Shown here one piece after another: positions 21,189-37,667 of a stretch of 64,000 nt of DNA. Numbering within the stretch: the first letter of the stretch is position 1; every line of letters begins with the position of its first letter. Made by a program: the position numbers and the translations under genes. The notes under the pieces are model-generated. The model did not search any database, was not told the origin of the DNA, and saw only the letters and a list, made by a program, of their open reading frames with translations. Source of the stretch: Pseudomonas hormoni (GTDB lineage: Bacteria; Pseudomonadota; Gammaproteobacteria; Pseudomonadales; Pseudomonadaceae); assembly GCF_018502625.1 (NCBI RefSeq), contig NZ_CP075566.1:2733001-2797000 (forward strand). The letters run 5' to 3'.

Positions 21189-21204
21189 CGTTGGTAGGGG
21201 GTGT
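21189..21204. promoter_or_regulatory. Ped-locus motif upstream of pqqA
   Basis: GCGTTGGTAGGGGGTG matches the TTGGTAG(T)AGGG core seen before exaC, pedH and pedF. Its GTAG is about 105 bases from the pqqA start, close to the 112-118 of the others. Degenerate, so individually weak. Confidence 0.4.
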
Positions 21205-21222
21205 TGCGGGGTGTCAGACACG

Positions 21223-21296
21223 GCCATTCGCGGGCAAGCCTCGCTCCTACAGATCACATAAACCTGTAGGAGCGAGGCTTGCCCGCGAAGGCCGTT
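21223..21296. repeat. Paired REP element (GTAGGAGCGAGGCTTGCCCG type)
   Basis: Near-perfect inverted copies lie downstream of exaC and upstream of the pqqA promoter region. The element may act as the exaC terminator. Confidence 0.87.
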
Positions 21297-21314
21297 ACAC
21301 GATCTCGTGTCGGA

Positions 21315-22835
21315 TCAGAAGAACCCTAGCGGATTGATGTCGTAGCTCACCAGCAGGTTTTTGGTCTGCTGATAGTGGTCGAGCATCATCTTGTGGTTTT
21401 CACGGCCGACACCGGACTTCTTGTAACCACCGAACGCAGCGTGCGCCGGGTACAGGTGGTAGCAGTTGGTCCACACGCGACCGGCCTTGATCGCCCGGCC
21501 CATGCGGTAGGCGCGGTTGATATCGCGGGTCCACAGGCCGGCGCCGAGGCCGAACTCGCTGTCGTTGGCAATCGCCAGGGCTTCGGCTTCGTCCTTGAAC
21601 GTGGTGATTCCCACCACCGGGCCGAAGATTTCTTCCTGGAACACGCGCATTTTGTTGTGGCCCTTGAGCAGGGTCGGCTGGATGTAGTAACCCGTCGACA
21701 AGTCGCCCTCAAGGCGTTCGGCCGCGCCGCCAGTGAGCAGCTCGGCGCCCTCCTCCTGGGCGATTTTCAGGTACGAGAGAATCTTGTCGTATTGCTGCTC
21801 GGACGCCTGGGCGCCGACCATGGTTTCGGTATCCAGCGGGTCGCCGCGCTTGATCTTGACGATCTTTTTCATCACCACTTTCATGAAGTCGTCGTAGATC
21901 GATTCCTGCACCAGAGCCCGGGACGGACAGGTGCAGACTTCGCCCTGGTTGAAGAACGCCAGCACCAGGCCTTCGGCGGCTTTCTCGATGAACTGCGGCT
22001 CGGCTTGCATGATGTCTTCGAAGAAGATGTTCGGCGACTTGCCGCCCAGTTCAACGGTGCTCGGAATGATGTTCTCGGCCGCGCATTTCATGATGTGCGC
22101 ACCAATCGGGGTGGAACCGGTGAAGGCGATCTTGGCGATGCGCTTGCTGGTGGCCAGCGCCTCACCGGCTTCGCGACCGAAACCTTGCACGATGTTCAAC
22201 ACACCGGCCGGCAGCAGATCGGCGATCAGTTCGGCGAAGATCATGATCGACAACGGCGTCTGCTCGGCCGGTTTGAGCACCACGCAGTTACCGGCCGCGA
22301 GCGCCGGGGCGAGTTTCCACGCGGCCATCAGCAGCGGGAAGTTCCACGGAATGATCTGCCCGACCACGCCCAGCGGCTCGTGGAAATGATAGGCGGTGGT
22401 CAGCTCGTTGATCTCGGCGGCGCCGCCTTCCTGCGCGCGGATGCACCCGGCGAAGTAGCGGAAATGGTCGGCGGCCAGCGGCACGTCGGCGTTCAGGGTT
22501 TCGCGCACGGCCTTGCCGTTATCCCAGGTTTCGGTGACGGCGAGGATTTCCAGATTCTGCTCGATGCGGTCGGCGATTTTCAGCAGCACCAACGAGCGAT
22601 CCTGCGCCGAGGTCTTGCCCCAGGCATCGGCAGCGGCGTGGGCGGCGTCGAGGGCCTTGTCGATGTCGGCGGCACTGGAGCGCGGGAACTCGGCGATCAC
22701 TTCACCGGTGACCGGCGAGGTGTTTTTGAAGTATTCGCCATTGACCGGCGCGACGAACTCGCCGCCGATGAAGTTGCCGTAGCGCGCCTTGAACGTGACG
22801 ACGGCGCCTGGTGTTCCGGGTTGTGCGTAGATCAT
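21315..22835 (-). CDS. exaC: NAD+-dependent acetaldehyde dehydrogenase ExaC/PedI
   Basis: The 506-residue aldehyde dehydrogenase oxidises the aldehyde made by the PQQ alcohol dehydrogenase in the cytoplasm. It has the oxyanion/Rossmann segment [20 protein letters not shown], the catalytic Glu in VELGGKSPN near residue 265, and the catalytic Cys in [14 protein letters not shown] near residue 304. The sequence is that of the ExaC/AldB group, and the gene lies next to pqqA and the PQQ dehydrogenase as in other pseudomonads. An upstream motif shared with pedH and pedF implies common control. Confidence 0.92.
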
Positions 22836-22937
22836 GGTGAGCCTCTGTCTGGGTCGATGCCTGTCGGCAAACAGGCGATGAACCGATAGTAGAGAGCCTC
22901 GCGTGCCGAACGAATGCGCCGTTGGCAGGGGGGCTCT

Positions 22938-22957
22938 CGTTATTTGGTAGTAGAAGG
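22938..22957. promoter_or_regulatory. Ped-locus motif upstream of exaC
   Basis: CGTTATTTGGTAGTAGAAGG has the TTGGTAGTAG core, with GTAG 112 bases before the exaC start. It is one of seven related sites in this locus. Confidence 0.5.
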
Positions 22958-22978
22958 TGCCGCAGGGTCAGCAGGCTT

Positions 22979-23113
22979 TTGTGGCGAGGGAGCTTGCTCC
23001 CGCTGGAGTGCGAAGCGCTCCCAAACCCAGACGCTGCGGATTATCTGTCACACCGCGTTGGCCGGTTTTACGACTGCTTCGCAGCCGAGCGGGAGCAAGC
23101 TCCCTCGCCACAG
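22979..23113. repeat. Paired REP element (GTGGCGAGGGAGCTTGCTCC type)
   Basis: Inverted long REP copies occupy most of the 311-base gap between pedH and exaC. The rest of the gap holds the exaC upstream motif. Confidence 0.86.
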
Positions 23114-23146
23114 GTAGGTCATTACCACCGGGTTGTGGTGGCTGAG

Positions 23147-24925
23147 TTAATGCTTGGCCACCACGAGGTCTTTCGGCAACTTGAAGGTCCAGAGCATGCC
23201 GCCCTGGTTGAAGTCCTTGATGCGCTTGGCCACCTCGCCGCCCCACAGCGGTACGGCGCCACCCCAACCGGACAGCACCGAGACGTACTGCTCGCCGTCC
23301 ATTTCCCAGGTCACGGGCGAACCCAGCACGCCGGAGCCGGTCTGGAACTCCCAGACCTTCTCGCCGGTCTTGGCGTTGAACGCCTGGAGGAAACCTTCCG
23401 GCGTACCGGTGAACACCAGGTTGCCCTTGGTGGTCAGCACCCCGCCCCACAGCGGCGCGAAGTTCTTGTGACGCCAGACTTCCTTGCCGGTTTTCGGGTC
23501 GATGGCGCGTAGCACGCCGATGTAGTCTTCGTTCAACGGCTTGATGGTGAATCCGGCACCGAGGAACGCCGCGCCTTTCTTGTAGGCGATGCCCTCGTTC
23601 CAGATGTCCATGCCCCACTCGTTGGACGGCACGTAGAACAGCCCGGTGTCCTTGTTGTAGGCCATCGGCATCCAGTTTTTCGCACCGAGGAACGCCGGGG
23701 CGACGAACACCGAGCCGCCTTTGGCTTCAGTGCCCGGTGCGCCGGGACGGCTGGCCTCGTTGTAGATCGGCCGGCCCTCTTTATCGAGGCCGGTGGCCCA
23801 AGTGATCTTGTCCACGAACGGGAAGCCGCGGATGAACTTGCCGTTGGTGCGGTCCAGCACATAGAAGAAACCGTTACGGTCAGCGGTCGCGGCAGCTTTG
23901 ATTTCTTTACCGCCTTCGGTGTAGTTGAACGAGACCAGCTCGTTCACGCCGTCATAGTCCCAACCGTCGTGAGGCGTGCTCTGGAAGTGCCATTTGATCG
24001 TGCCGTCGTCCGGGTTAAGTGCCAGACGCGACGATGAGTAAAGGTTGTCGCCAGGACGCAGGTGCGAGTTCCATGGCGCCGGGTTGCCGGTGCCGAACAG
24101 CAACAGATTGGTTTCCGGGTCGTAGTAACCGCCAAGCCAAGGCGCCGCGCCGCCGGTTTTCCACAGATCGCCCGGCCAGGTCTTGCCCGCTTCACCACCG
24201 GAAATGCCGTTCTCCACCGCTTTACCGTCCTTGTAGACGTAGCCCATGTGGCCTTCGACGGTTGGGCGGCTCCAAAGCAGGTCGCCGTTTTTCGGGTCGT
24301 AGGCTTCGATCTTGCCGACCACCCCGAACTCGCCACCGGCCACGCCGGTAATCAGTTTGCCGTTGATCACCAACGGCGCGGCGCTGATCGAATAGCCTTC
24401 CTTGTGGTCGGCGACTTTCTTGCTCCAGACGACTTTGCCGGTGTCTTTGTTCAGGGCCACGAGTTTGGCGTCGAGGGTGCCGAAGAACACCAGGTCGCCG
24501 TACAGCGCCACGCCCCGGTTGATCACGTCGCAGCACGGGCGGATGTCATCGGGCAGACGCGCATCGTATTGCCAGAGCTTCTTGCCGGTGCGCGCGTCCA
24601 CCGCAAACACCCGCGAGTAGGAGCCGGTCATGTACATCACGCCGTCCTTGATCATCGGCTGTGCTTGCTGACCGCGTTGTTTTTCGCCGCCGAAGGAGAA
24701 CGCCCAGACCGGCCGCAAGTCCTTCACGTTGTTGACGTTGAGGGTGTCGAGCGGACTGTAGCGCTGACCCTGGACGCCCAGACCGTTGGTGACGATCTGC
24801 TCCGGGTTCTTGGGGTCCTGGAGAATGTCCTGGTCGGTGACGGCGGCCAATGCCGTGCCGGACAACAGCATGGCACTGAGCAACAGGCTCAAGACGAAGG
24901 GTTGGCGACGTACGGGTTGGGTCAT
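23147..24925 (-). CDS. pedH: PQQ-dependent alcohol dehydrogenase, lanthanide (PedH) type
   Basis: This periplasmic quinoprotein oxidises alcohols and aldehydes and passes electrons to a c-type cytochrome. The 592-residue precursor has a signal peptide ending near residue 28 and the eight-bladed propeller with its repeated W-motifs. The adjacent Cys pair C131-C132 (DDIRPCCDV) is present. Metal and cofactor ligands are E199 (GGEFGVVG), N281 (GTGNPAPWN) and the catalytic D323. Two residues on, D325 gives DYDG, the extra Asp of lanthanide enzymes, where the calcium enzyme ExaA has Ser (DFSG). No heme motif is present, so it is a type I enzyme. Substrates are probably ethanol, 2-phenylethanol and other short alcohols by family. 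Confidence 0.93.
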
Positions 24926-25031
24926 GACGGCTGCCTCTGCGGTTTTTGTTATACCCGGGAAATTTTCCCGGTCTGGTGCAGATTCTTGGGCGCCGCCGCC
25001 CTTCCAACAATTGCCCGCAGTGCTGAGATTG

Positions 25032-25051
25032 CTAGTTCCTTAGTAGCGGGT
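25032..25051. promoter_or_regulatory. Ped-locus motif upstream of pedH
   Basis: CTAGTTCCTTAGTAGCGGGT differs at few positions from the site before pedF, and its GTAG is 118 bases from the pedH start. Confidence 0.6.
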
Positions 25052-25090
25052 CGGAGGAGATGAATACCGGATTTCCTGATCGACATCGGT

Positions 25091-25187
25091 CCCCTGTGGG
25101 AGCGAGCCTGCTCGCGATGAGGCCAGAACATTCAACATTAATGATGCCTGACACACCGCCATCGCGAGCAGGCTCGCTCCCACAGGG
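25091..25187. repeat. Paired REP element (GTGGGAGCGAGCCTGCTCGC variant)
   Basis: Inverted copies lie between the hydrolase gene and pedH, with the conserved inner spacer containing CATTCAACATTAATG. Confidence 0.88.
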
Positions 25188-25198
25188 TTCTGTGTTGT

Positions 25199-26137
25199 TC
25201 ATTTGTTTGCGGCGGAATCGACTCGGGTCATCTGTGCGCGCTCGTAGCGCGGGTAGAGATGACTGACGCTGCGGATCAGTTCATAGCGGCTCAGGCTGAT
25301 CGCCGCGAACCGTTCGGGGATGGGACTACGGATCATCTCGCCCATATCGCTGCCATTGGCCGCGCCGTCACGCATCAGTTGATCGAGCCAGCCAAGGTAG
25401 TCGCGCATTTGCTCGAACGGTTTTGCGTCCGTGGCCAGCGGGCCATGGCCGGGCACAATCATTGTCCACGGCAAGCCCTGCAGTGTCGCAATGTCCGCCA
25501 GCCACACCGACAATCCCGGACTGTTGGGCGTGGTCAACGCCCGTTGGTAAAACACCAGATCCCCGCCAAACAGCACGCCGGTTTTCTGGTCGAGAATAGC
25601 CAGATCAGCGCCGGTGTGCCCACCCAGGCTCAGCAGGCGCAGATCGTGATCCCCAAAATTTCGCACGCCCGGTGTCAGCGTCTCGGTCGGCAACACCACT
25701 TCGGTGCCACGCATCCAGTCACCCACCAGCCGGTACATGTTCTCGGCCATGGCGTCGCCCTGCTGCCCAAGTAACTCAGTCGTGCCGGCCAACGCGCCGA
25801 TCGGCACGTCACTGAAGGCTTGATTACCCAGCACATGGTCCGGGTGATGATGCGTCAGCAACACCTGGATCACAGGTTTATCGGTGGTCGCGGCGATCAC
25901 TTTGCGCATACTTTCGCCGTAACGCTTCGACGGCCCGGTATCGATCACCACCACACCGCGTTCGGTGACGATGAACGCGGTGTTGACGATATTCCCACCG
26001 TTGCCCTTGGCGAAATTGTCGGTGCTGCCTTCCAGTAGCCAGGTGTCTGCGGCGATCTGGCGAGGCTTGAGTGAATAGTCGAGATCGGCCAGCGCAGGAA
26101 GGCTCAGGCTCATGAACAACAGCAGCATCCAGCGCAT
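25199..26137 (-). CDS. Quinoprotein relay system zinc metallohydrolase (MBL fold)
   Basis: The 312-residue exported metallo-beta-lactamase-fold protein has a signal peptide ending at ALA-DLD, residue 17. The zinc motif THHHPDH is at residues 95-101, followed by GGHTGADL and VPGHGPL further on. It belongs to the group found only beside PQQ dehydrogenases and named quinoprotein relay system metallohydrolase; its substrate is unknown. ATG at 26137 is used because upstream in-frame sequence runs antisense-like through the next gene. It follows the SoxYZ-like gene by 16 bases. Confidence 0.83.
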   Translation of the reverse strand: MRWMLLLFMSLSLPALADLDYSLKPRQIAADTWLLEGSTDNFAKGNGGNIVNTAFIVTERGVVVIDTGPSKRYGESMRKVIAATTDKPVIQVLLTHHHPDHVLGNQAFSDVPIGALAGTTELLGQQGDAMAENMYRLVGDWMRGTEVVLPTETLTPGVRNFGDHDLRLLSLGGHTGADLAILDQKTGVLFGGDLVFYQRALTTPNSPGLSVWLADIATLQGLPWTMIVPGHGPLATDAKPFEQMRDYLGWLDQLMRDGAANGSDMGEMIRSPIPERFAAISLSRYELIRSVSHLYPRYERAQMTRVDSAANK

Positions 26138-26153
26138 CACGCGTTCCTCTGAG

Positions 26154-26915
26154 TCAGGGTATGGCCGCATCAAACTGGTTGCCGCTGTTGTCGCGCAACG
26201 ACAAGCGCGTCTGCCCTGCCCCTTCGATGTCGAACGCCAGGTTGGGGTTTTCGCTGACGGCGGGAAACAGTTCGAGGCGGGCCAGCAACTGATCGTTGTG
26301 ATCCCGCAGCTCGGCATGGTTGATGAAAAACTCCGGGATGCCACCGACCATGCCGTTGTCCATCGGGTGCGCCACCTGCAAACGCAAGCGGCTGAATTCG
26401 CCACGGGGATAGCGCCCACCGATGACTTCGCCAATGTGCTCTTCCCAACCCGGCTGGGTGCGCACCACGCTCGGCGCCGTGCAACCGCCGCCCGCCGCAT
26501 CGATCAGGGTCGAGCCGACATGCCACAGCCCGTCGCGGGTCAGGACCGCTGCACGCAACGGCGTGGCTTGTTCGATACGGATGCGGATCGACAGCCACGG
26601 CAGCACACGATCCAGCGGTTGAAAATCGACAATTTTCGGCAACGGATTGAGTTCGGCCCACGCAAGGATTTTTACCACCTCGCCCTTGAACGCCCGGGCG
26701 TCGATTTCCAGCGGCACTTGTCGGGCGTCTTCGGCGAACGGCGGCGTCAGCAGCTTGACCCGCTCGTCGAATACGAACGGCGCATCGCCAAGCATCTGCT
26801 TGTGATAGAAGGCCCACATGACCGAGGGCACCGGGTCTTTCCCCGGCTCGATGGCTGCCGCGTGCGCGGCCAAGGGTAGCCAACAGGCCAACAGACAACG
26901 CACGCTCCAGTTCAC
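26154..26915 (-). CDS. Quinoprotein dehydrogenase-associated SoxYZ-like carrier
   Basis: This 253-residue secreted protein has a signal peptide ending near AHAA. It fuses a SoxY-like and a SoxZ-like half. C145 in the GGGCTAPS loop resembles the GGCGG swinging-arm Cys of SoxY, although here it is internal and not at the C-terminus. SoxYZ carries sulfur intermediates on that Cys. The role next to a PQQ dehydrogenase is not established. Its start overlaps the stop of the binding-protein gene (ATGA). Confidence 0.83.
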   Translation of the reverse strand: MNWSVRCLLACWLPLAAHAAAIEPGKDPVPSVMWAFYHKQMLGDAPFVFDERVKLLTPPFAEDARQVPLEIDARAFKGEVVKILAWAELNPLPKIVDFQPLDRVLPWLSIRIRIEQATPLRAAVLTRDGLWHVGSTLIDAAGGGCTAPSVVRTQPGWEEHIGEVIGGRYPRGEFSRLRLQVAHPMDNGMVGGIPEFFINHAELRDHNDQLLARLELFPAVSENPNLAFDIEGAGQTRLSLRDNSGNQFDAAIP

Positions 26916-27790
26916 TGTTGATACATCTCCGGCACGTCATACCGCAGGCCGTAACGGGCATAAATGGCTTTCACCGCGCCTTCGCGGATCAAGGTTTCCA
27001 GCGCCTCTTCCACGGCATAGGCCAACTGACGATTGCTTTCGTGCACCGCCATGCCGATCTCCCAGAGTTGCTTGCCCATGTTCGGATAGGCGTTTTCCGC
27101 CAGCGCGAGTTGCGGGTCCGCCGCCTCGTGAACCTGCCAGTCGATCTCGCCGCGCATCGCCATGACCGCGTCGACTTCACCGGCCTTCATGGCCGCGAAC
27201 GCCTGGGGCACGCCGGGGTAGTGGCGGGTTTTGCCGGCGAGCATGCCGTTGAAAATCGAGGTCAGGTAGAACGACGGCACGCTGTCGACCTCGACGCCAA
27301 TCGGGTGGTGCTCGAACACCGCAACACTGCCCACCGACTCGAGCCGACGGCGGTCATAAGCGACTTGCCATTGCTCGTTCTGGTACGGACCGAACATCAC
27401 CACATGGCCGTTTTCCAGTTCACCCAGTTCGTTGCGCTTGCGCGCGTAATCCTGGTCATAGGGCACGCGCATCATCAGGTCGGCCAATTGCAGATCGTGC
27501 AACTGACTGGCGCGCCAGATGTAGTCGCGCAGGTCGTCGTCGAGCTTCTCGCCGGCGGGCGCCCAGATCAGTTTCAAATGAACGCCAAGGGCTCTGGCCA
27601 AGGCCTCGGCCAGCTCGACATCCACGCCACGGGGCTGGCCGGCGTCTTCGAAACTGTAGGGGGCGAAGTCTTTGTAGACCGCCACCTTCAGCTCCCCGGC
27701 GGCGATCATTTCGTCATAGGTACGGACCTGCGCCTGCACCGCCTGGCAGCACAGCAGCACGGCGCTGATCAACACAGCGAGCAGGCGCAT
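26912..27790 (-). CDS. Quinoprotein-associated periplasmic solute-binding protein
   Basis: The 292-residue protein with a signal peptide (ends AVQA-QVR) has the SBP type-2 fold of amino-acid-binding proteins: LKVAVYKDFAPYSFED, GVDVELAEALARALG and the C-terminal helix IREGAVKAIYARYGL. It belongs to a set that co-occurs with PQQ dehydrogenases; the P. putida counterpart lies beside pedF. It may bind PQQ, a metal chelate or a redox intermediate. The ligand is unknown. It follows the cytochrome gene by 3 bases. Confidence 0.83.
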   Translation of the reverse strand: MRLLAVLISAVLLCCQAVQAQVRTYDEMIAAGELKVAVYKDFAPYSFEDAGQPRGVDVELAEALARALGVHLKLIWAPAGEKLDDDLRDYIWRASQLHDLQLADLMMRVPYDQDYARKRNELGELENGHVVMFGPYQNEQWQVAYDRRRLESVGSVAVFEHHPIGVEVDSVPSFYLTSIFNGMLAGKTRHYPGVPQAFAAMKAGEVDAVMAMRGEIDWQVHEAADPQLALAENAYPNMGKQLWEIGMAVHESNRQLAYAVEEALETLIREGAVKAIYARYGLRYDVPEMYQQ

Positions 27791-27793
27791 GCA

Positions 27794-28255
27794 TTACTCC
27801 TCGACGTGAACGCTGTCCAGGTAAGTGCGCACAGCCCACAGGGCTTCCTGACTCAGGTAATCGGCCATCTTCGGCATGTACACCCGGCCGTCCCGTACGG
27901 CACCGTTGCGGACCCGTTCGACGAACCATTCATCACCGGCGTCGCCGACATCGAGCATGCGCAAATCGGGAGCGATGCCGCCGGACTTGGCTTCCAGGCC
28001 ATGACAGGCCGCGCAGTTCTGGTTGTAGGCCGATGAGCCGATTTCCACGGCTTTGTCGTGCTCGGGTGTCGTACGGTAAGGGTTTACCGCCGCCCAGCCA
28101 TCGCCATCAACCTGTACGCCGGCGTCCTTGATCGGGGTCAGGCCCTTGGTTTCGACGGCTTGTGGAACCACGTTGCCGTGGGCCCAGACAGAACCTGCAC
28201 TGATAAAACCGGCCAGCAGTCCGGCAACGAGCAAGGCGTTGCGTTTTGTTGTCAT
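27794..28255 (-). CDS. pedF: Cytochrome c550 PedF, electron acceptor of the alcohol dehydrogenase
   Basis: This 153-residue precursor has a signal peptide ending at VWA-HGN. The single heme motif CAACH lies near residue 82, and the axial Met is probably in VYMPKM near residue 127. It accepts electrons from the PQQ dehydrogenase in the periplasm and passes them to the terminal oxidase. It heads the leftward pedF / binding protein / SoxYZ-like / hydrolase operon and diverges from the ABC-type operon. Confidence 0.9.
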   Translation of the reverse strand: MTTKRNALLVAGLLAGFISAGSVWAHGNVVPQAVETKGLTPIKDAGVQVDGDGWAAVNPYRTTPEHDKAVEIGSSAYNQNCAACHGLEAKSGGIAPDLRMLDVGDAGDEWFVERVRNGAVRDGRVYMPKMADYLSQEALWAVRTYLDSVHVEE

Positions 28256-28358
28256 TGTTATGCCCTCAGGATTGCACGCAAAACCTCTTGGCAGAGGCTA
28301 TGGCAACCATCTTAGGAAGCGTTTCGCGCCAGCCCCATGCTGCTTTGGTGGCCGCCGT

Positions 28359-28378
28359 CTAGTTCCTTGGTAGTAGGG
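28359..28378. promoter_or_regulatory. Ped-locus motif upstream of pedF
   Basis: CTAGTTCCTTGGTAGTAGGG is the best copy of the motif, with GTAG 115 bases before the pedF start. Confidence 0.6.
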
Positions 28379-28401
28379 CAATTGGCCGACACTCGGACGC
28401 G

Positions 28402-28421
28402 TTACGACCTTGGTACTGGCC
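28402..28421. promoter_or_regulatory. Ped-locus motif upstream of the ABC/propeller operon
   Basis: TTACGACCTTGGTACTGGCC lies about 80 bases before the ATG at 28495, matching the distance of the similar site before the CXXCW gene. Confidence 0.5.
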
Positions 28422-28494
28422 CATCAGTACTTTCTGCATATTTCCCCACCCGCTCATGCTTCCTATGCTGGCGCTACCTGTAATGGAGTGCCTT

Positions 28495-29679
28495 ATGCGC
28501 CAGCTTGCCCCTTACGCCCTGATCTATCTGCTGGCGATTGCCTGCGCCGCCGGGCTGGCGACCCAGAGTCAGGCGGCCGACGCGCCCTTGCAGGTGCAGA
28601 TCGGCTACCTGGGTTTTCGCCCTGATCCGGGGCCGCTACTGTCCAACGTCATTCCCGAGCCGGTCGATGCCGGAGGGCGTGGCGCCGAACTGGCGATCAC
28701 CGACAGCAACAGCACCGGGCGTTTTCTCAATCACAGTTACAGCCTGGCCAGCGTCAACGCCGACAGCCCGGAGGCCTTGCTTGAGGCGGCCACGGCTCAA
28801 CACGCGCAAGGTCTGCGCCTGTTTGTGGTAAACGCGCCAGTGGCCAGCCTGCGCCAACTCAGCGCCGCCCTGCCTGACAGTTTGCTGTTCAACGCCGGCA
28901 GCCCGGATGACAGCCTGCGCACCACCGACTGCTTGCCGAACGTGCTGCACACGCTGCCGAGCCGGGCGATGCTGGCCGATGCGCTGGCGCAATTTCTGGT
29001 GGTGCGCAAATGGCAACGGGCGCTGCTGATCGTCGGCCCGACCGCTGACGATCAAGCCTATGCCGCCGCCCTGCGCCGTGCGGCGAAACGCTTCGGCGTG
29101 CAACTGGTCGCGGAAAAGGCCTGGAGTTTCGATAACGACCAGCGCCGCAGCGCCCAGGCCGACATGCCGCTGTTCACCCAGACCGCCGAGTACGACGTGG
29201 TGCTGGTGGCCGATGAACGCGGTGACTTCGGCGAATACGTGCCCTACCAGACCTGGTATCCGCGCCCGGTGGCCGGCACTCAAGGCCTGACCCCGGTCGG
29301 TTGGCACAAGACCGTGGAAACCTACGGCGCCGCACAATTGCAAAAGCGCTTCGAAGCCATGGCCGGGCGCTGGATGAACGACCGCGACTTTGCCGCGTGG
29401 ATGGCTGTGCGCAGCATCGCCAGCGCAGTGAGCAAACTGCGTCAGACCGATCCGACGGCGATCCGTACGCTGGAAATCAGCGATCAATTGCCGCTGGACG
29501 GTTTCAAGGGTCGCAAGCTCAGTTATCGCCCTTGGAACGGCCAGTTGCGCCAACCGATCCCCATCGTCCAGCCGCGGGCGCTGGTCAGTACCTCGCCGCA
29601 GGACGGCTTTCTGCACCCTTTCAACGAAATGGACAGCCTCGGTTACGACAAGCCGGAGGTCAGCTGCCGCTTTCCCTGA
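28495..29679 (+). CDS. ABC-type substrate-binding protein of the PQQ alcohol dehydrogenase system
   Basis: The 394-residue protein has a signal peptide ending at SQA-ADAP and a type-1 periplasmic binding fold similar to branched-chain amino-acid receptors (IGYLGFRPD, LIVGPTADDQAYAAAL). It belongs to the family associated with PQQ alcohol dehydrogenases. ATG at 28495 has GGAG 7 bases upstream; the in-frame start at 28456 would leave the motif too close. In P. putida the matching cluster (pedA1A2BC) affects growth with lanthanides. It is the first gene of a five-gene rightward operon. Confidence 0.83.
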   Translation: MRQLAPYALIYLLAIACAAGLATQSQAADAPLQVQIGYLGFRPDPGPLLSNVIPEPVDAGGRGAELAITDSNSTGRFLNHSYSLASVNADSPEALLEAATAQHAQGLRLFVVNAPVASLRQLSAALPDSLLFNAGSPDDSLRTTDCLPNVLHTLPSRAMLADALAQFLVVRKWQRALLIVGPTADDQAYAAALRRAAKRFGVQLVAEKAWSFDNDQRRSAQADMPLFTQTAEYDVVLVADERGDFGEYVPYQTWYPRPVAGTQGLTPVGWHKTVETYGAAQLQKRFEAMAGRWMNDRDFAAWMAVRSIASAVSKLRQTDPTAIRTLEISDQLPLDGFKGRKLSYRPWNGQLRQPIPIVQPRALVSTSPQDGFLHPFNEMDSLGYDKPEVSCRFP

Positions 29680-29709: not shown

Positions 29710-30669
29710 ATGCGCCGCACCCTGCTTTCATGCGCCCTGCTACTCACTGCCGGGCAGGCCGCGGCCAGCACCGCCTGGGTCTCGAACGAGAAAGACAACA
29801 GCCTCAGCCTGATCGACATGCAGACCTTGCAAGTCACCGACACCCTGCCCGTCGGCCAGCGCCCACGCGGTCTGCTGCTGTCCCACGACAGCAAGCTGCT
29901 GTACATCTGCGCCAGTGATTCGGACCGGGTGCAAGTGATGGATGTCGCCACGCGCAAGATCATCAAGGAACTGCCTTCGGGCAAGGACCCCGAGCAATTC
30001 GCCCTGCACCCGAACAATCGCTGGCTCTACGTTTCCAACGAGGACGATGCGCTGGTGACGGTGATCGACACTGAAACTTCCAAGGTGCTGAGCCAGATCA
30101 ACGTCGGCGTCGAACCCGAAGGCATGGCGGTCAGCCCTGACGGCAAGTGGGCGGTGAACACCAGTGAAACCACCAACATGCTGCACTGGATCGACACCAG
30201 CACTCAGACCCTGGCCGACAGCACGCTGGTGGATCAGCGACCGCGTTTCGTCGAGTTCGCGCCCGATGGTTCGAAGCTCTGGGCCTCGGCGGAAATCGGC
30301 GGCACGGTGACCATTCTCGATGTCGCGACCCGCCAGGTGCTCAAGACCCTGAACTTCCAGATCAAAGGCGTACACCCGGACAAGGTTCAGCCGGTGGGCA
30401 TCAAACTCAGTGCCGACGGCAAGTATGGTTTCGTCGCGCTCGGTCCGGCCAATCATGTGGCGGTGATCGATGCCAGGACCTTCGAAATCCTCGACTATCT
30501 GCTGGTCGGCCGACGCGTCTGGCAGATGGCGTTTACCCCGGATCAGAAGCAATTGCTGGCGACCAATGGTGTCAGCGGCGATGTGTCGGTGATCGATGTC
30601 GACAGCCTCAAGGTCAGCAAATCGGTGAAGGTCGGGCGCTATCCGTGGGGCGTGGTGGTGACGCCATGA
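29710..30669 (+). CDS. PQQ-associated YVTN beta-propeller protein
   Basis: This 319-residue secreted protein has a signal peptide ending AAAS-TAW and seven YVTN-like blades with repeated V(I)D-T/V...V patterns, such as VTVIDTETSKVLSQINVG near residue 116. It belongs to the beta-propeller family named for PQQ-dependent catabolism. It may be a periplasmic binding scaffold for a metal or cofactor. There is a good AAGGAATCTGCC leader, and the stop codon overlaps the ATG of the ATPase (ATGA). Confidence 0.83.
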   Translation: MRRTLLSCALLLTAGQAAASTAWVSNEKDNSLSLIDMQTLQVTDTLPVGQRPRGLLLSHDSKLLYICASDSDRVQVMDVATRKIIKELPSGKDPEQFALHPNNRWLYVSNEDDALVTVIDTETSKVLSQINVGVEPEGMAVSPDGKWAVNTSETTNMLHWIDTSTQTLADSTLVDQRPRFVEFAPDGSKLWASAEIGGTVTILDVATRQVLKTLNFQIKGVHPDKVQPVGIKLSADGKYGFVALGPANHVAVIDARTFEILDYLLVGRRVWQMAFTPDQKQLLATNGVSGDVSVIDVDSLKVSKSVKVGRYPWGVVVTP

Positions 30670-31397
30670 ACGCACTGGAAGTCAGCGACCTGAGCTTTGC
30701 CTATGGCTCGCGGGAGGCGTTGCGCCAGGTGAGTTTCTGCCTGGAGCCGGGGCGTTTCGCGGCGCTGCTGGGGCCCAACGGTGCAGGAAAATCGACCCTG
30801 ATCGCGCTGCTCACCCGGCTCTACGATTTGCAGCGGGGCGACATCCGCGTCGGAGGCTTCTCGCTGCGCAATGAGCCGCGCCCGGCGCTGAGGCAATTGG
30901 GTGTGGTGTTCCAGCAAAGCACCCTGGACCTGGACCTCAGCGTTGAGCAGAACCTGCGGTATCACGCCGCGCTGCATGGGATGTCGCGGCGCCAGACCAA
31001 CTTGCGGGTCGACGCCGAACTGGCCCGGCAAACGCTGACCGAACGCCGGCGCGAGCGAGTGCGCGAACTGAATGGCGGGCATCGTCGCCGGGTGGAAATC
31101 GCCCGCGCGCTGCTGCATGAGCCACGCCTGTTGCTGCTCGACGAGGCGAGCGTCGGCCTCGACCCGGCCAGTCGCCTGGCACTCAATCAACACATCCGCA
31201 ATTTGTGCCGCGAGCAATACATCAGTGTGCTCTGGACCACCCATTTGCTGGATGAAGTGCAGCCCAGCGATGATTTGCTGATTCTTCACCAAGGGCATTT
31301 GGTGGCCAGCGGACAAGCCGACGCCCTGAGCCTGGAACACGGCGGCGACCTCGGTTGCGCCTTCGCTCGCCTGACGACCTCTGGAGCCGCCCGATGA
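30666..31397 (+). CDS. ABC transporter ATP-binding protein of the PQQ/alcohol system
   Basis: The 243-residue ATPase has Walker A GPNGAGKST near residue 37, the Q-loop VVFQQS, Walker B LLLLDEASVGLD near residue 157 and H-loop TTHLLDE. The signature loop reads LNGGHRRR, where LSGGQ would be usual. This variant may lower or alter ATPase coupling. The partner permease is of the exporter (ABC-2) type. Both ends overlap neighbours by ATGA, so translation is tightly coupled. Confidence 0.88.
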   Translation: MNALEVSDLSFAYGSREALRQVSFCLEPGRFAALLGPNGAGKSTLIALLTRLYDLQRGDIRVGGFSLRNEPRPALRQLGVVFQQSTLDLDLSVEQNLRYHAALHGMSRRQTNLRVDAELARQTLTERRRERVRELNGGHRRRVEIARALLHEPRLLLLDEASVGLDPASRLALNQHIRNLCREQYISVLWTTHLLDEVQPSDDLLILHQGHLVASGQADALSLEHGGDLGCAFARLTTSGAAR

Positions 31398-32185
31398 ATG
31401 CTTACTGGCAATGTTTCAGCGGCATCGTGCTGCGCGAATGGCTGCGTTTCGTGTTGCAGCGCACGCGGTTTCTCAGTGCGCTTGTCCGGCCGTTGCTGTG
31501 GCTACTGGTGTTCGCCGCCGGTTTTCGCGCGGCCCTGGGCATTGCCATTATCGAGCCCTACGACACGTACATCCCGTATGAGGTCTACATCATCCCTGGC
31601 CTGGCCTGCATGATTCTGCTGTTCAATGGCATGCAAGGTTCATTGTCGATGGTCTACGACCGGGAGATGGGCAGCATGCGCGTGCTGCTGACCAGCCCCC
31701 TGCCCCGGACATTCCTGCTGTGCAGCAAATTGTTGGCAACGTCGTTGATTTCGCTGTTGCAGGTGTATGCCTTTCTGGCGATTGCCTGGGTGTACGGCGT
31801 GCAACCACCGGCCATGGGGCTGTTGATCGCTTTGCCGGCGTTGTTGCTGGTTGCGTTGATGCTCAGCGCGCTGGGCCTGTTGCTGTCGAATGCCATCCGT
31901 CAGTTGGAAAACTTCGCCGGGGTGATGAATTTCGTGATCTTCCCGTTGTTCTTCCTGTCCTCGGCGCTGTATCCGCTGTGGAAGATGCGTGAGTCCAGCG
32001 AGTGGTTGTACGGGTTGTGTGCGTTGAACCCGTTTACCCATGCGGTGGAGCTGGTGAGGTTCGCGTTGTATGAACGCTTCAATCCGTTGGCGCTGGCGGT
32101 GTGTGTGGGGCTGACATTGTTGTTTGCCCTGCTCGCCGTGCTCACCTTCAACCCGCAGCATGCCGCCTTGCGCAAAGCCAACTGA
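31394..32185 (+). CDS. ABC-2 type permease of the PQQ/alcohol system
   Basis: The 263-residue membrane protein has six predicted helices and the ABC-2 core (SMVYDREMGSMRVLLTSPLPR near residue 98, FFLSSALYPLW, LCALNPFTHAVELVR). By architecture it is an exporter. In P. putida, the homologous ABC system is needed for growth on lanthanide enzymes at low metal, so the direction and cargo are unclear. It overlaps the ATPase gene by 4 bases, and a REP pair follows its stop. Confidence 0.86.
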   Translation: MNAYWQCFSGIVLREWLRFVLQRTRFLSALVRPLLWLLVFAAGFRAALGIAIIEPYDTYIPYEVYIIPGLACMILLFNGMQGSLSMVYDREMGSMRVLLTSPLPRTFLLCSKLLATSLISLLQVYAFLAIAWVYGVQPPAMGLLIALPALLLVALMLSALGLLLSNAIRQLENFAGVMNFVIFPLFFLSSALYPLWKMRESSEWLYGLCALNPFTHAVELVRFALYERFNPLALAVCVGLTLLFALLAVLTFNPQHAALRKAN

Positions 32186-32195
32186 CCACACAAGT

Positions 32196-32293
32196 CCCCT
32201 GTCGGAGCGGGCTTGCCCGCGATGGCGCCCGCACATTCAACATTAATGTCGACTGAAAGATCGCTATCGCGGGCAAGCCCGCTCCCACAGGGG
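32196..32293. repeat. Paired REP element (GGAGCGGGCTTGCCCGCGAT type)
   Basis: Inverted copies around the conserved CATTCAACATTAATGTCGACTG spacer split the ABC genes from the CXXCW gene. Confidence 0.88.
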
Positions 32294-32317
32294 ATCTGTG
32301 CTGAACACAGGGGTGAA

Positions 32318-32337
32318 ATTACTACTTTAGTACTGGT
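32318..32337. promoter_or_regulatory. Ped-locus motif upstream of the CXXCW gene
   Basis: ATTACTACTTTAGTACTGGT contains CTTTAGTACTGG, with its GTAC about 81 bases before the ATG at 32414. Confidence 0.45.
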
Positions 32338-32413
32338 TTTCCTGTCTATCGTCGCATTCCCAACGCACCGGGACTGGCATGTAATGGGTTCATAACTATA
32401 AGGATTGAACCCC

Positions 32414-32971
32414 ATGCCGCGTGCCCGACGTCGTCTGCTACGCCCTTCTCTCGCTGCGCTGTCGCTGAGTTTGTTGCTGGGCGCCGCGCAGGCCGAGACA
32501 CCGCTGTTCTCCGCCGAAGGCTATCGCATCGGCCTCTACCGCAGCCCGACCCCGAATCAACTGCAAGGCGCATCCATCATCGATACGCCGGCCCTGCAAA
32601 CCCTGCTCACCCAGACACCACGCCCGGTGCTGATCGACGTCTATCGCCGTCAATGGCTGCAAGGGCGCTTCATCGAAGACCAGCCCCATGAGAACCTGCC
32701 CGGCAGTCATTGGCTGGCCAATACCGGCGATGGCGACCTGACGCCCGACTGGCAGGGCTATTTTGCGCGTAACCTGAACACATTGACCGCGGGCGATCTT
32801 GCGCAACCGCTGGTCTTCTACTGCCGCTCCGATTGCTGGTTGAGCTGGAACGCGGTCAAGCGCGCCGCCGCCATGGGTTATAAGACTCTGTATTGGTATC
32901 GCGATGGCCTGGATGCCTGGCAAGCGGCGAACCTGCCCGTGGCGCCCGCCCGGCCCGAACCCTTTCCCTGA
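32414..32971 (+). CDS. PQQ-associated rhodanese-like 'CXXCW' protein
   Basis: The 185-residue secreted protein has a signal peptide ending AAQA-ETP and a rhodanese-like fold. The active loop FYCRSDCWLSWNAVKRA near residue 138 has two Cys before Trp in a C-x3-CW spacing, as in its namesake family. ATG at 32414 has AAGGA upstream; the in-frame TTG at 32405 lacks one. It may handle sulfur or copper/thiol chemistry for the quinoprotein system, but no substrate is known. It precedes the response regulator by 56 bases. Confidence 0.82.
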   Translation: MPRARRRLLRPSLAALSLSLLLGAAQAETPLFSAEGYRIGLYRSPTPNQLQGASIIDTPALQTLLTQTPRPVLIDVYRRQWLQGRFIEDQPHENLPGSHWLANTGDGDLTPDWQGYFARNLNTLTAGDLAQPLVFYCRSDCWLSWNAVKRAAAMGYKTLYWYRDGLDAWQAANLPVAPARPEPFP

Positions 32972-33027
32972 CCTTTACGCGTGCGTGTTGTTGCCACACC
33001 ATAATCAAAATAATGAGGTGAAAGGCT

Positions 33028-33693
33028 ATGTACAAAATTCTGATTGCCGACGATCACCCGCTGTTTCGCGAAGCCATTCATAACGTCATCAGCGATGGTT
33101 TCCCGGGCACCGAAGTCATGGAAACCGCCGACCTCGACAGTGCCCTGGCGCTGACTCAGGAACATGACGACCTGGACCTGATCCTGCTCGACCTGAACAT
33201 GCCGGGGATGCACGGCCTCAATGGCCTTATCAACCTGCGCAACGAGGCGCCGACCATCCCGGTGGTGATCGTCTCCGCCGAGCAGGACAAGCAGATCGTG
33301 CTGCAAGCCATCACCTATGGTGCGGTGGGTTTCATCACCAAATCCTCGCCGCGGGTGCAAATGACCGAGGCGATCCAGCAGATTCTCAACGGCAACGTCT
33401 ACCTGCCGCCGGACATCATCCGCACGCAAAAAAGCGGCACCCACCGCCGGATGAACGATAACCCGAGCTTCCCGCAGGAGCTGCTCCAGGCCCTGACCCG
33501 CAAGCAGTTGCTGGTGCTGGAACGCATGACCAAGGGCGAGTCGAACAAACAGATCGCCTACACCCTGGAAATCGCCGAAACCACGGTCAAGGCCCACGTC
33601 TCGGCGATCCTGCGCAAACTCAACGTGCACAACCGGGTGCAGGCGATCCTGAGTGCCGGGGATATTGATTTCGGCTCTTATCTGCGGCGTTGA
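33028..33693 (+). CDS. agmR: LuxR/NarL-family response regulator AgmR/ErbR
   Basis: The 221-residue regulator has a receiver domain (DDHPLFREA near residue 9, phospho-Asp in [10 protein letters not shown] near residue 54, K at residue 108). A C-terminal GerE/LuxR helix-turn-helix follows ([20 protein letters not shown], near residue 156). AgmR/ErbR activates PQQ alcohol-oxidation genes in P. putida and P. aeruginosa. It is therefore the obvious candidate reader of the repeated motif upstream of pedH, pedF, exaC and pqqA. GAGG lies before the ATG. Confidence 0.88.
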
Positions 33694-33712
33694 ATGTTGG
33701 GATTCCCCAATC

Positions 33713-33837
33713 TCTGTGGCGAGGGAGCTTGCTCCCGCTGGGTCGCGAAGCGGCCCCCTGCAAACTTCCAGATAAACCGAGTTGCCTGATTTACGACTGC
33801 TTCGCAGTCGAACGGGAGCAAGCTCCCTCGCCACAGA
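33713..33837. repeat. Paired REP element (GTGGCGAGGGAGCTTGCTCC type)
   Basis: Inverted long REP copies lie between the converging agmR and nahK genes. Confidence 0.86.
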
Positions 33838-33853
33838 TTTAGTGTCCGGAGAG

Positions 33854-36490
33854 TTAACGGGATAGGCCGAGCAGGTGACTCATCGCCGTCTTGAGCTTCA
33901 TCGGCCGCACCGGTTTGTGCATCAAGGTGTGCCCCAACTCACGAATCTGCAATTTGAGCTCATTGCTGTAGTTGGCGGTGATCATCATCGCCGGAATGGC
34001 TGAGCCGCGCCGGGCGTTGATCCGGGCCACCGCATCCACACCGTTCTGCTCGTCATCCAGGTGATAGTCGGCGATCAGCAAATCCGCTTCGGCGTGATAG
34101 TTGTCCACTTGCCGCGCCAGGTCCTGCTCCGACAACGCCGTCACCACCAGACACCCCCAACCTTCCAGCAACGTACGCATGCCGGCACAAATCGCCGCAT
34201 CGTTATCCAGCACCCAAACTCGCGCACCGCGCAGACGCTCGAGCATCGGCTCACTCATCAGCAGGCTCGGCAGTGCCTTGGGTGCCGTAGCGCTCAGCGG
34301 TACTTCGACGGAAAACATCGAGCCCTTGCCCGGCCACGATCGCACGTGAATGCGGTGCCCGAGAATCCCGGCAATTTTCTCGACAATCGCCAGCCCCAGA
34401 CCCAACCCGCGATCCTGATCCGGACGCTGCACATCACCGCGCTTGAACTCCTGGAAAATCTCTTCCAGACGGTTGTGCGCAATGCCCATGCCGCTGTCCC
34501 AGACCTCGATCGACAGGCGTTGATGATGACGCCGGCAACCGAGCACCACCCGGCCGCTGTAGGTGTAGCGAATAGCGTTGCTCAACAGGTTCCGCAGGAT
34601 CCGCGCGAGTAATTGAATGTCGCTGCGCACCAGCGCCGAACACGGGATGAAATGCAGCTCAAGCCCCTCACTGCGGGCCACCTGGGTGTACTCCGCGGCG
34701 AGGTTTTCCAGCAATTCGCTCAAGGCGAACGGCGCAATGTCGGCCTTGATCACCCCGGCATCGAGTTTGGAAATATCCACCAGGGTGCCCAGCAGGTTTT
34801 CCACGTCTTCCAGGGAATTGCTGACGTTACGCACCAGAATCTCGTTGGCCACCGGCTCCCGGCGTTCGAGCAAGGCGCTGGTAAACAGTCGCGCGGCATT
34901 CAGTGGCTGCAACAAGTCATGGCTGACGGCGGCGAGAAATTTGGTCTTCGACAGGTTGGCCTGTTCGGCGTCGAGCTTGGCTTCGCGCAGGCGTGATTCC
35001 ACGCGCCGGCGTTCGTCAATCTCGCGCAGCAGCTGCTCATTGAGGGTGGTCAGCTCCGCCGTACGCTCACGTACCCGCAGTTCAAGGTTTTGATACGCCT
35101 GGTGCAGCGCCTCGGCGGTGCGGCGGCGCTCGGTGATGTCGCGGATCAACACGAAAATCCCCACCACCTCCCCGGTGACCAGCCGATTCGGCACATAGGA
35201 GCGCAGCATGTAGCGCTCCTGATTATTGATGTTGGTTTCGGCAAACTCGAACGTCACGCTTTCGCCGGCCAATGCCCGGGCCACGTAGGCTTCCAGCCGC
35301 TGATAATGTTGCTCACTGTGCACCTCGCGCAGGCTTTGCCCGAGCATGACGCCGCGAGGCCAGCAGTACCATTCTTCATAAACCTTGTTGGTGAATTCGT
35401 AGACCAGGTCGGCATTGAGGTAGGCGATCAGCGCCGGTACGTGGTCGGTGATCAGGCGAATCCAGCGCTCGCTTTCGCTCAGCGCTTCGGCGTGCTGGTA
35501 GCGTTCGGTGATGTCGGTGAAGGTGTTGACGAAGCCGCCGGTGGGCAACGGGTGCGTGCGAATTTCCAGGACTCGGCCATCGTAAAGACGCTGCTCGCAT
35601 TCCTGCACCGGGCGCCCGTTGCCGTCGCGGCTGGCGGGGGTCAGCAGGTTCAGCTCGCTGTCGGCGATCACTTCGGCGAACGGCCGGTGCGCCGCCACGG
35701 GCGCAAGGCCGCTGAGCTCGAGAAAACGCCGGTTCCACAATTCGAGTATGCCCTCGGCGTTGACCATCGCCACGCCTTGGGACAGGTTGTCGACCGCCCG
35801 TTGCAGCAAATGGGATTTCTGCGCCACCGCCTGCTCGCGGCGCACCGTTTCGCTGAGTTTGACGTCGGTAATGTCGGTGAACAGGATCACCCGCCCGCCC
35901 TCTTGGGTCGGCCGTTCGCTGACTTGCAGCCAGCGACCGTTCTGCAGGCGAAACAACAGGTTTTCGTCGGCCTGCCCGCGCGGTTCCTCGGTAAACAGCC
36001 CGGTGACGATCATCAGTCGCTTGACTTCCGCCAGGCGCATGCCGGCGTTGATCCGCACCCGACTGTTGCCCCAGAACGCCTTGAAGCGGCTGTTGAACAG
36101 CACGATTCGCTGGTCGGCATCGAACAGTACAAAAGCGTCGGAGATGCTCTCGATGGCGTCGATCAGGTGTTGATGCGCGGTTTCTGCACGCAAGCGCGCT
36201 TCGCTGAGCAAATGATTGCCCGACTTGAGTTCGGCCATGGCCTGGTTCAAGGCATCGGTGCGCTCACGGACCTGTTCGGCCAGCACCACCGAATGCTGGA
36301 ACGCCGCGTACGGGTCGTTGCCGCGGGTGATACCGGATTCGATCCGTTCGATCAGCGCGCCATTGATGCGCTGCAGTTTCTGGTTTTCGTGTCGCAGGCT
36401 GGCGACTTGCGCCTGAAGCTCAACGATGTCCAGGGGACCGGCCTCGGGCAATGGCAACCCCGGTGAAGGTCTGGTTGATGTGCATGCCAT
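33854..36490 (-). CDS. nahK: Hybrid sensor histidine kinase NahK (ErcS')
   Basis: This 878-residue soluble kinase starts with a coiled coil (residues 22-95). Three PAS-like domains follow, at about 105-220, 230-345 and 350-470, the last with RYMLRSYVPNR. A second coiled coil precedes HisKA (AAVSHDLLQPLNAARLF near residue 540). The HATPase motifs GMGIAHNR and GLGLGLAIVEK come next, and a C-terminal receiver (DLLIADYHLDDEQ) ends the chain. In P. aeruginosa, NahK works with the nitric-oxide sensor NosP in the HptB biofilm pathway and was also named ErcS' in ethanol oxidation. Its start lies 71 bases inside nosP with GGAG upstream. Confidence 0.88.
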   Translation of the reverse strand: MACTSTRPSPGLPLPEAGPLDIVELQAQVASLRHENQKLQRINGALIERIESGITRGNDPYAAFQHSVVLAEQVRERTDALNQAMAELKSGNHLLSEARLRAETAHQHLIDAIESISDAFVLFDADQRIVLFNSRFKAFWGNSRVRINAGMRLAEVKRLMIVTGLFTEEPRGQADENLLFRLQNGRWLQVSERPTQEGGRVILFTDITDVKLSETVRREQAVAQKSHLLQRAVDNLSQGVAMVNAEGILELWNRRFLELSGLAPVAAHRPFAEVIADSELNLLTPASRDGNGRPVQECEQRLYDGRVLEIRTHPLPTGGFVNTFTDITERYQHAEALSESERWIRLITDHVPALIAYLNADLVYEFTNKVYEEWYCWPRGVMLGQSLREVHSEQHYQRLEAYVARALAGESVTFEFAETNINNQERYMLRSYVPNRLVTGEVVGIFVLIRDITERRRTAEALHQAYQNLELRVRERTAELTTLNEQLLREIDERRRVESRLREAKLDAEQANLSKTKFLAAVSHDLLQPLNAARLFTSALLERREPVANEILVRNVSNSLEDVENLLGTLVDISKLDAGVIKADIAPFALSELLENLAAEYTQVARSEGLELHFIPCSALVRSDIQLLARILRNLLSNAIRYTYSGRVVLGCRRHHQRLSIEVWDSGMGIAHNRLEEIFQEFKRGDVQRPDQDRGLGLGLAIVEKIAGILGHRIHVRSWPGKGSMFSVEVPLSATAPKALPSLLMSEPMLERLRGARVWVLDNDAAICAGMRTLLEGWGCLVVTALSEQDLARQVDNYHAEADLLIADYHLDDEQNGVDAVARINARRGSAIPAMMITANYSNELKLQIRELGHTLMHKPVRPMKLKTAMSHLLGLSR

Positions 36491-37583
36491 TGAACTGTTC
36501 TCCGTAGGTGTTGAAACCCATCACCCGCTGGTCACGCAAAAACGTACCGATCTGCTCCAGGTTGCCGCCGTCTTCCAGTTCCAGACGCCTGAGAAAACAA
36601 TCGCAACCGATGGTCAGCAACAGGTCTCCGAGGCGTTCCTGCAACCCCTCGAACAGATTCTGCAGGTTCGGCAGCATCGGGCCGGGCGTCATGACCGTGA
36701 GGACGATGCCGTTTTCCACTGCACAGTAGAAACTCAGGCTCAGGTCCGGATGAACCTGCTGGATCGCCCGTACGTAGTACTGATCGTTGATCCGCACCGC
36801 CAGCGGGTGTGCGGCGAAGATCCGGTGATCGAGCTCGGCCACGGGCACGCCGATGTGCCGGGCGTACTCCTCGGCGGCGGGTTCGGCATTCAGTTCGAAA
36901 ACCCGGCGCGAAGGGCTGTCGGCTCCGGTGACCACCAGTTTTTCTGCCCGCGGCAGGATGTGGTGGGTCGTGAAGACTTCGAAATCCAGCCAGGTGTTGA
37001 CCAGCACCACCACCGCCGCGCCACTGTGGAACTCGCCATTGAAATAGACGTGGGTATGGGTCAGGTAATTGTCGTCGCCGGCCGAACCGCCGAAATGCGG
37101 GATGTCGCCCAACGCCGCGCTCAGCGCCGCGAGGACCATTTCTTCACGGCTGGACAAACCATCCAGCAGGGTCAGGGCAAAGCTGTTGCCCTTGATCGGC
37201 GCCAGGGTGTTGCTGCGACAGCCACTGACCAGACGCTCGACCATTTGCTGGGCGTCGATCAGGCTGAATCGCTCCATCTCGTCGATCAGTTCGGCGTCGA
37301 TGGAAAAATGCCGATGGTCGAAACCTACCGCCGTCACGCAGTTGCGGCCGTAACCCAACGGGGTGATTTCACCGGCGCTGGTGCAGCCGACCAGGCGAAT
37401 ACCACCGAAGCTTTGTTGCAAGGCCTGACCCAGCACCTGCAAGTCGTATTCGGCGGAACAGAAAAACAACACGAACCCCAAATGCGGATGCAATAGCTGC
37501 CGCGCCAGTTCCTGAGCCACCTGTTCGGCATCGGTCGACTGGGACATTGCACTGACGACACCTTCGCTCTGAACCTGCTGCAT
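36420..37583 (-). CDS. nosP: FIST-domain nitric-oxide sensor NosP
   Basis: The 387-residue cytoplasmic protein has FIST_N (VLFFCSAEYD, LVGCTSAGEI near residue 60, FGGSAGDD near residue 165) and FIST_C (residues about 225-365, with LTIGCDCFLRR). NosP proteins bind heme and NO and inhibit the partner kinase. GGGAGG sits before the ATG at 37583. The reading frame overlaps nahK by 71 bases, longer than a usual coupling overlap. A ped-type motif 75 bases upstream suggests shared control with alcohol oxidation. Confidence 0.87.
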   Translation of the reverse strand: MQQVQSEGVVSAMSQSTDAEQVAQELARQLLHPHLGFVLFFCSAEYDLQVLGQALQQSFGGIRLVGCTSAGEITPLGYGRNCVTAVGFDHRHFSIDAELIDEMERFSLIDAQQMVERLVSGCRSNTLAPIKGNSFALTLLDGLSSREEMVLAALSAALGDIPHFGGSAGDDNYLTHTHVYFNGEFHSGAAVVVLVNTWLDFEVFTTHHILPRAEKLVVTGADSPSRRVFELNAEPAAEEYARHIGVPVAELDHRIFAAHPLAVRINDQYYVRAIQQVHPDLSLSFYCAVENGIVLTVMTPGPMLPNLQNLFEGLQERLGDLLLTIGCDCFLRRLELEDGGNLEQIGTFLRDQRVMGFNTYGEQFNGMHINQTFTGVAIARGRSPGHR

Positions 37584-37647
37584 CGTCGCCTCCCGCAGGT
37601 GCGCATGTATGAGGTTGGAGTGTACGAAGGCTATGGGCTGCTACGTA

Positions 37648-37667
37648 TGCTACTTGGGTAGCGGTCA
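37648..37667. promoter_or_regulatory. Ped-locus-like motif upstream of nosP
   Basis: TGCTACTTGGGTAGCGGTCA contains the perfect inverted repeat CTAC-TTGG-GTAG, about 75 bases before nosP. It has one extra base in the core compared with the pedF site. Confidence 0.4.

Follow-up and report, generated by a model that had tools for sequence, protein, structure and literature searches.

AgmR, also called PedR1 or ErbR, is established as an activator of the ped and pqq genes (PMC12997753), and genetic evidence makes it an activator of pedE, pedF and pedI (PMC13390443). Direct activation of the alcohol-oxidation genes by this regulator is disputed: PMC13390443 argues for it against an indirect-only model, and this 2026 study itself ranks its PedR1 genetics as no more than the second line of evidence for direct control. 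The closest described DNA element belongs to CrbR, whose ACTU site in the acs promoter begins with the half-site TACTACC and lies at -52 to -36; mutations, and activation in E. coli that depended on CrbR, showed this site to be required (PMC5715377). Here we describe an imperfect inverted repeat, TACTACC-NN-GGTAGTA, which precedes six transcription units of a ped-type cluster and is very probably an operator of AgmR; it was studied in a 64 kb stretch (the window; contig NZ_CP075566.1, positions 2,733,001 to 2,797,000) of the 6.48 Mb single-contig genome of Pseudomonas hormoni.

The target genes, and the position of the regulator gene inside the locus, are those of the AgmR/PedR1/ErbR regulon as described for the ped/exa cluster (PMC12997753, PMC13390443); what is added here is the site itself, with its architecture and the range of lineages that carry it. 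The regulon is already known, but the description of its operator is apparently new: no Pseudomonas AgmR operator was found in the open-access literature searched (that search did not extend to subscription literature such as the original exa and HK5 promoter studies, and absence from print is not established), and the words 'motif' and 'binding site' are absent from the main text of PMC13390443. With such an operator, defined in sequence and fixed in promoter geometry, a few base changes suffice to test the disputed question. The operator would also connect the regulators of alcohol and acetate use through a shared DNA code, predict regulon members in Pseudomonas and in seven further genera, and show designers of alcohol biosensors which element counts.

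Sites lie before pqqA (21184..21199, in a 7-2-7 arrangement with a degenerate left half), exaC (22937..22952), pedH (25033..25048) and pedF (28360..28375) on the minus strand, and before pedA1A2BC (28403..28418) and the rhodanese-like (CXXCW) gene and agmR (32320..32335) on the plus strand, with the first T of TTRGTA falling at 21191, 22944, 25040, 28367, 28410 and 32327, respectively; the dyad is used in both orientations relative to the genes. An earlier interpretation made without database searches (the sequence-only reading) had placed a recurring motif before seven units, and at these six a full dyad is present where it was said to be. The seventh, nosP, has another arrangement, with a related single site, GCTACCCAAGTAGCAT (37647..37662, minus strand), in the proximal position and no distal dyad. 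The string TTRGTASTRG occurs four times on the two strands of the window, all four in the ped locus. The 20-mer originally put forward has a single exact occurrence in the window and no further match at up to three mismatches, and a weight matrix was therefore needed. This was built from 63 distinct 22-mers (23.7 bits) from the upstream regions of orthologous loci in 25 congeneric genomes, a set in which loci L041, L050, L054, L058 and L061 end early at contig ends and to which genome G035 does not belong. The consensus is CTACTACC-TT-GGTAGTAG, in a 7-2-7 arrangement that is a common binding target of LuxR-type response regulators. Operators of the NarL/FixJ family likewise consist of heptamers inverted around two bases, with TAC...GTA ends as in the ped dyad; the heptamer sequence and promoter positions differ, and the ped dyad is a putative operator.

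Above 9 bits the matrix has five matches in the window, each at a ped promoter, with pqqA and nosP scoring below that threshold. When each promoter family was left out in turn and 127,962 window positions were ranked, the other ped sites being set aside, the site of the omitted family ranked best for five of the six (exaC, pedH, pedF, pedA1 and rhodanese). An inverted-repeat finder returned little at these sites, because the dyads are imperfect. The whole genome was searched with two profile models, from both of which nosP and pedE rows were excluded: R1, of the 24 bp site, whose training includes five of the window sites, and R2, of the 78 bp from the site to the -10 box, whose training includes orthologues and no window sequence. 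Three of the 30 rows of the R2 alignment (A2) were removed by hand, namely L040 pedF, where the matrix had taken the neighbouring pedA1 site, one L043 pedA1 row, and L058 exaC, which was the same dyad as its agmR row. The searches scored the best 150 of 564 (R1) and the best 150 of 1170 (R2) first-look candidates, and weak extra sites may escape them. Within these, R1 placed its five ped sites (exaC, pedH, pedF, pedA1 and rhodanese-agmR) at ranks 1-5 and had only two other matches, both within coding sequence and treated as chance: C1:3071506, inside the open reading frame of an ABC-transporter ATPase (ABC_tran, L078:2268-3035, minus strand), and C1:2910885, inside that of a FadL-family porin. 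R2 placed the six ped promoters at ranks 1-6, with E-values of 1.1e-13 (rhodanese-agmR), 9.7e-10, 1.3e-7, 1.3e-7, 8.8e-4 (pqqA) and 0.027 (pedH); the next match, at 0.71, is at chance level. Unrelated genes thus do not share the density of the strong motif, and the sequence-only reading withstands the computational half of the refuting test set for it.

The spacing thought too regular to be accidental had been that to the start codon, about 105-118 nt in the leftward units and about 80 nt in the rightward ones. This was rejected as the key regularity, since in relatives it varies widely, from 99 to 175 nt at pedF (row L040 again set aside, for the reason given above) and from 47 to 78 nt at the rhodanese gene. 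What is constant is the distance to a -10 box, which at all six window promoters, read in the sense direction, starts 52-54 nt from the centre of the dyad: 53 nt at exaC (TACTAT, 22886..22891, minus strand), pedF (TAAGAT, 28309..28314, minus), pedH (AAGAAT, 24982..24987, minus) and pedA1 (TATGCT, 28464..28469, plus), 52 nt at rhodanese-agmR (TGTAAT, 32380..32385, plus) and 54 nt at pqqA (ATTAAT, 21132..21137, minus). Allowing any offset of 30-79 nt, such an alignment was reached in none of 5000 mononucleotide shuffles and none of 5000 independent shifts. At pedA1 the first ATG (28456) is upstream of the -10 box, which makes the ATG at 28494 the more likely start.

A second element lies 20-23 nt nearer the promoter than the distal dyad and aligns with the CrbR ACTU site of acs. 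Its sequence is TTCGAAAGTAGCAT at pqqA (21160..21176, minus strand), CCAACGGCGCAT at exaC (22914..22930, minus), CCACCAAAGCAGCAT at pedF (28337..28353, minus), TACTTTCTGCAT at pedA1 (28423..28439, plus) and CTATCGTCGCAT at rhodanese-agmR (32341..32357, plus), with a weak form at pedH (25011..25027, minus); it is degenerate, above all in pedH and pedA1. A conserved GCAT block (GCAA in pedH) begins 25-28 nt from the distal centre. Counted by eye, the -10 box starts 31 nt from the proximal centre at pqqA, exaC, pedF, rhodanese and nosP (TACACT, 37619..37624, minus strand), 32 nt at pedH and 33 nt at pedA1, and the acs -10 box similarly starts about 31 nt from the ACTU centre. The ACTU site resembles the ped elements in being an imperfect inverted repeat led by TACTACC, with a 2 nt centre near -44 and a LuxR-type regulator 45% identical to AgmR (PMC5715377). 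The ped promoters differ in having, further upstream near -66, an additional complete dyad whose right half is GGTAGTA, and in the restriction of this composite promoter, within the genus set, to genomes that encode AgmR. At the rhodanese promoter the proximal CGTCGCAT is close to the GTCGAAT-like right half of ACTU, whereas the distal right half, GGTAGTA, differs from it. The ped promoters thus look like ACTU-type promoters with a dyad added about two helical turns upstream. However, in many acs promoters (L278 among other acs loci) the ACTU centre is preceded, at about 22 nt, by a conserved TTTGTAGGG block, and since this is the same upstream place, the tandem arrangement may be older than AgmR and not unique to ped.

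The sequence-only reading had named AgmR, encoded within the locus, as the natural candidate, and the distribution of the site supports this. AgmR (E <= 1e-90) is present in 27 of 59 genomes of the genus, and R2 (E <= 0.01) matches all 27 of these and none of the 32 others, 18 of the 27 having supplied R2 sequences and the other nine none. Neither of the other two LuxR-type regulators considered follows this pattern, CrbR being found in all 59 genomes and PedR2 (E <= 1e-45) in 17. The site stands before the rhodanese gene and agmR or, in five loci without the rhodanese gene, before agmR itself. The most divergent genome of the genus (G051, AgmR 76%) has a site before agmR and a weaker one (12.1 bits) before what is presumably a yiaY-like gene.

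Because genomes lacking AgmR generally lack the cluster, a gene present in both groups was needed to separate the regulator from its surroundings, and exaC, relatives of which occur in all 59 genomes (81 copies), was chosen. In the genomes without AgmR, none of 33 copies has an upstream match above 12 bits. In those with AgmR, four of the 29 copies outside the ped cluster carry the site, 112-115 nt upstream: that of G007 scores 12.1 bits, and those of G009, G013 and G054 were found by R2. In G013 and G054 a single contig carries both exaC and agmR, over 170 kb from each other, and in G007 and G009 the two genes are on separate contigs. Most of the other unlinked copies have MRY, not MIY, at their N-terminus and appear to be a second paralogue. 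The site can thus stay with exaC away from agmR, but not at every exaC. The present genome also has an exaC paralogue outside the cluster (G000:C1:4958083-4959600), 88% identical and without the site, and similar non-cluster copies exist in many of the 59 genomes.

Beyond this set, 80 further named AgmR loci (1.54 Mb), many of them close to the training set, hold 255 matrix matches above 15 bits, every one before a ped-type gene and within about 330 nt upstream of it; one first-order simulated sequence of 1.54 Mb holds none. Across 195 genomes of the order, R2 matches occur in 20 genomes and nine of 96 genera, eight of these being genera other than Pseudomonas and seven of those eight having the matches beside the same genes. 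Ped-type genes (exaC, pedE-pedF, pedA1, rhodanese or agmR) are present at 26 of the 27 new loci inspected among 48 listed matches, and at 21 of the 22 that lie outside Pseudomonas.

In the mechanism that we propose, the distal inverted repeat of each ped promoter, centred near -66, would act together with a second site of its family, more degenerate and centred near -44, by the -35 region, some two helical turns away and on the same face of the DNA. These positions are counted from putative transcription starts, obtained by aligning the promoters with acs, for which others have mapped the start. Phosphorylated AgmR dimers would occupy both sites and recruit sigma-70 RNA polymerase, the predicted effect being to switch on the dehydrogenases, the cytochrome, lanthanide uptake, PQQ synthesis and, through positive feedback, agmR itself; at nosP, the proximal site would serve alone. 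The six units preceded by the candidate site can be set beside the known AgmR dependence of pedE, pedF and pedI (PMC13390443).

A number of observations weigh against this interpretation, among them the overlap between training and test genomes noted above. Genomes without AgmR mostly lack the ped cluster, and the co-occurrence partly reflects inheritance of one block; exaC separates the regulator from the cluster only in part, since most unlinked copies are the apparent second paralogue. In four genomes with AgmR (G003, G022, G048 and G051) the sole exaC relative is of the MRY type and lacks the site, and the cluster-linked exaC of L044, L047 and L195 has no upstream site above 9 bits, that of L195 following directly on the preceding gene. 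Owing to a degenerate left half-site, the distal pqqA site is weak, ranking 52nd (4.3 bits) once its family is omitted from training. In the order-wide scan, L306, the sole match in its genus, has no ped-type gene. AgmR activates the distal pqq operon in KT2440 (PMC12997753), yet a 14 kb stretch around the second pqqA of the present genome (G000:C1:5140019, at 5.14 Mb; L002, L079) contains no AgmR-type site. This region was rejected as an AgmR target, and the two PQQ loci look separately regulated, given that the second pqqA neighbourhood is without such a site. EmaR of Acinetobacter baumannii, called the counterpart of PedR1 (PMC13390443), is an ethanol-use regulator for which the motif xCTTATxxxxATAxAT was inferred with MEME (PMC9603970), and this does not match the ped motif. 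Binding by AgmR is deduced throughout from sequence comparison, and CrbR could recognise the same half-site.

This last point leads to the strongest of the rival explanations, that the acetate regulator CrbR (ErdR) is the main binder and the ped promoters are ACTU promoters reporting acetate made from ethanol. CrbR is encoded in this genome, where it is the closest paralogue of AgmR (45% identity), and the two recognition helices are near-identical (CrbR region EATIKAHVTAIFRKLNV), a likeness that would explain the shared TACTACC half-site; the proximal ped element, moreover, occupies the ACTU position (PMC5715377). The helix likeness and the half-site shared with ACTU (PMC5715377) also count in favour of AgmR, as do the PedR1 genetics (PMC13390443). 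CrbR, however, is present in all 59 genomes and the composite promoter only in the 27 with AgmR, whereas sites within two mismatches of the acs ACTU occur in 51 of the 59, irrespective of AgmR. In addition, the terms pqq, ped, PP_2663 and PP_2665 are absent from the main text of the KT2440 MxtR/ErdR paper (PMC8402216). CrbR is therefore unlikely to be the main binder. A less probable alternative is that the conservation reflects a promoter or structural feature, such as a sigma-factor or nucleoid element, inherited with the cluster: the sites do co-vary with the cluster, and the -10 box belongs to the conserved block, but such a feature would sit poorly with the dyad symmetry, the use of both orientations, the retention of the site at relocated exaC genes and the likeness to the experimentally proven ACTU site (PMC5715377). 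Least credible, and rejected as binder, is PedR2 (ExaE), the lanthanide-switch regulator, a LuxR-type protein of the same cluster that controls pedE and pedH (PMC12997753) but whose recognition helix differs, and for which no match (E <= 1e-45) was found in ten of the 27 site-bearing genomes, namely this complete one and nine others, some of them drafts.

AgmR remains the favoured binder of the distal dyad. A more speculative extension, which we regard as possible but doubtful, is that the ped promoters are two-input gates, in which the distal dyad would be specific to AgmR (alcohol) and the proximal ACTU-like site open to AgmR or CrbR (acetate). The tandem element would then tie the assimilation of acetate to the oxidation of alcohols, and the AgmR regulon would have evolved from ACTU promoters by addition of the upstream dyad.

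The ped-type cluster spans 14.7-37.6 kb of the window. Leftward genes are pqqA, B, C and E, then a yiaY-like dehydrogenase and a hybrid kinase, as well as exaC (pedI), pedH, a metallo-hydrolase, pedG and pedF; rightward genes are pedA1A2BC, the rhodanese-like gene and agmR (33028..33693, plus strand), which encodes receiver and LuxR-type helix-turn-helix domains according to Pfam and is the gene present in 27 of the 59 genomes. Beyond agmR, pedS1 and nosP again run leftward. The first genes behind the pqqA site are pqqA, from 21090 leftwards, and pqqB (20049..21090, minus strand). Past pqqE, the dehydrogenase, which we take to be yiaY/ercA-like from its N-terminus, and the hybrid kinase (14689..17629, minus strand) have the orientation of the pqqA promoter. 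Gene names beyond the Pfam families are likewise presumptive, and agree with the gene order in PMC12997753. Joint transcription of this pair from the pqqA promoter is a possible arrangement, the direction being the same; both have been reported as acting upstream of AgmR (PMC12997753), and their position downstream of the pqq genes could form a second feedback loop. In two relatives examined, pedE, pedR2 and other genes lie between pedA1 and pedF; here that interval lacks them, and a search of the whole genome found no PedR2 match (E <= 1e-45), while no genome-wide search was made for pedE.

Just downstream of the putative pedH transcription start lies a palindrome, CGGGAAATTTTCCCG (24956-24970). 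Among the 25 cluster loci, palindromes of this kind precede pedE and pedH and, in L061, are also present in the pedF-pedA1 gap; the exact palindrome is also found elsewhere in some genomes, and in 27 of the 59 in all. A palindrome, CGGGAANNNTTCCCG, was initially guessed to be a PedR2 operator, and persists at pedH in genomes without PedR2. In the present genome CGGGAAATTTTCCCG is retained although PedR2 was not found. The pedH palindrome is possibly the operator of a repressor or of the lanthanide switch. Five intergenic gaps, at 21238-21300, 22980-23115, 25090-25190, 32195-32295 and 37715-37810, also hold long inverted repeats, noted by eye and falling into two or three related types (e.g. 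gtaggagcgaggcttgcccgcgaa); these are probably REP-like repeats or terminators.

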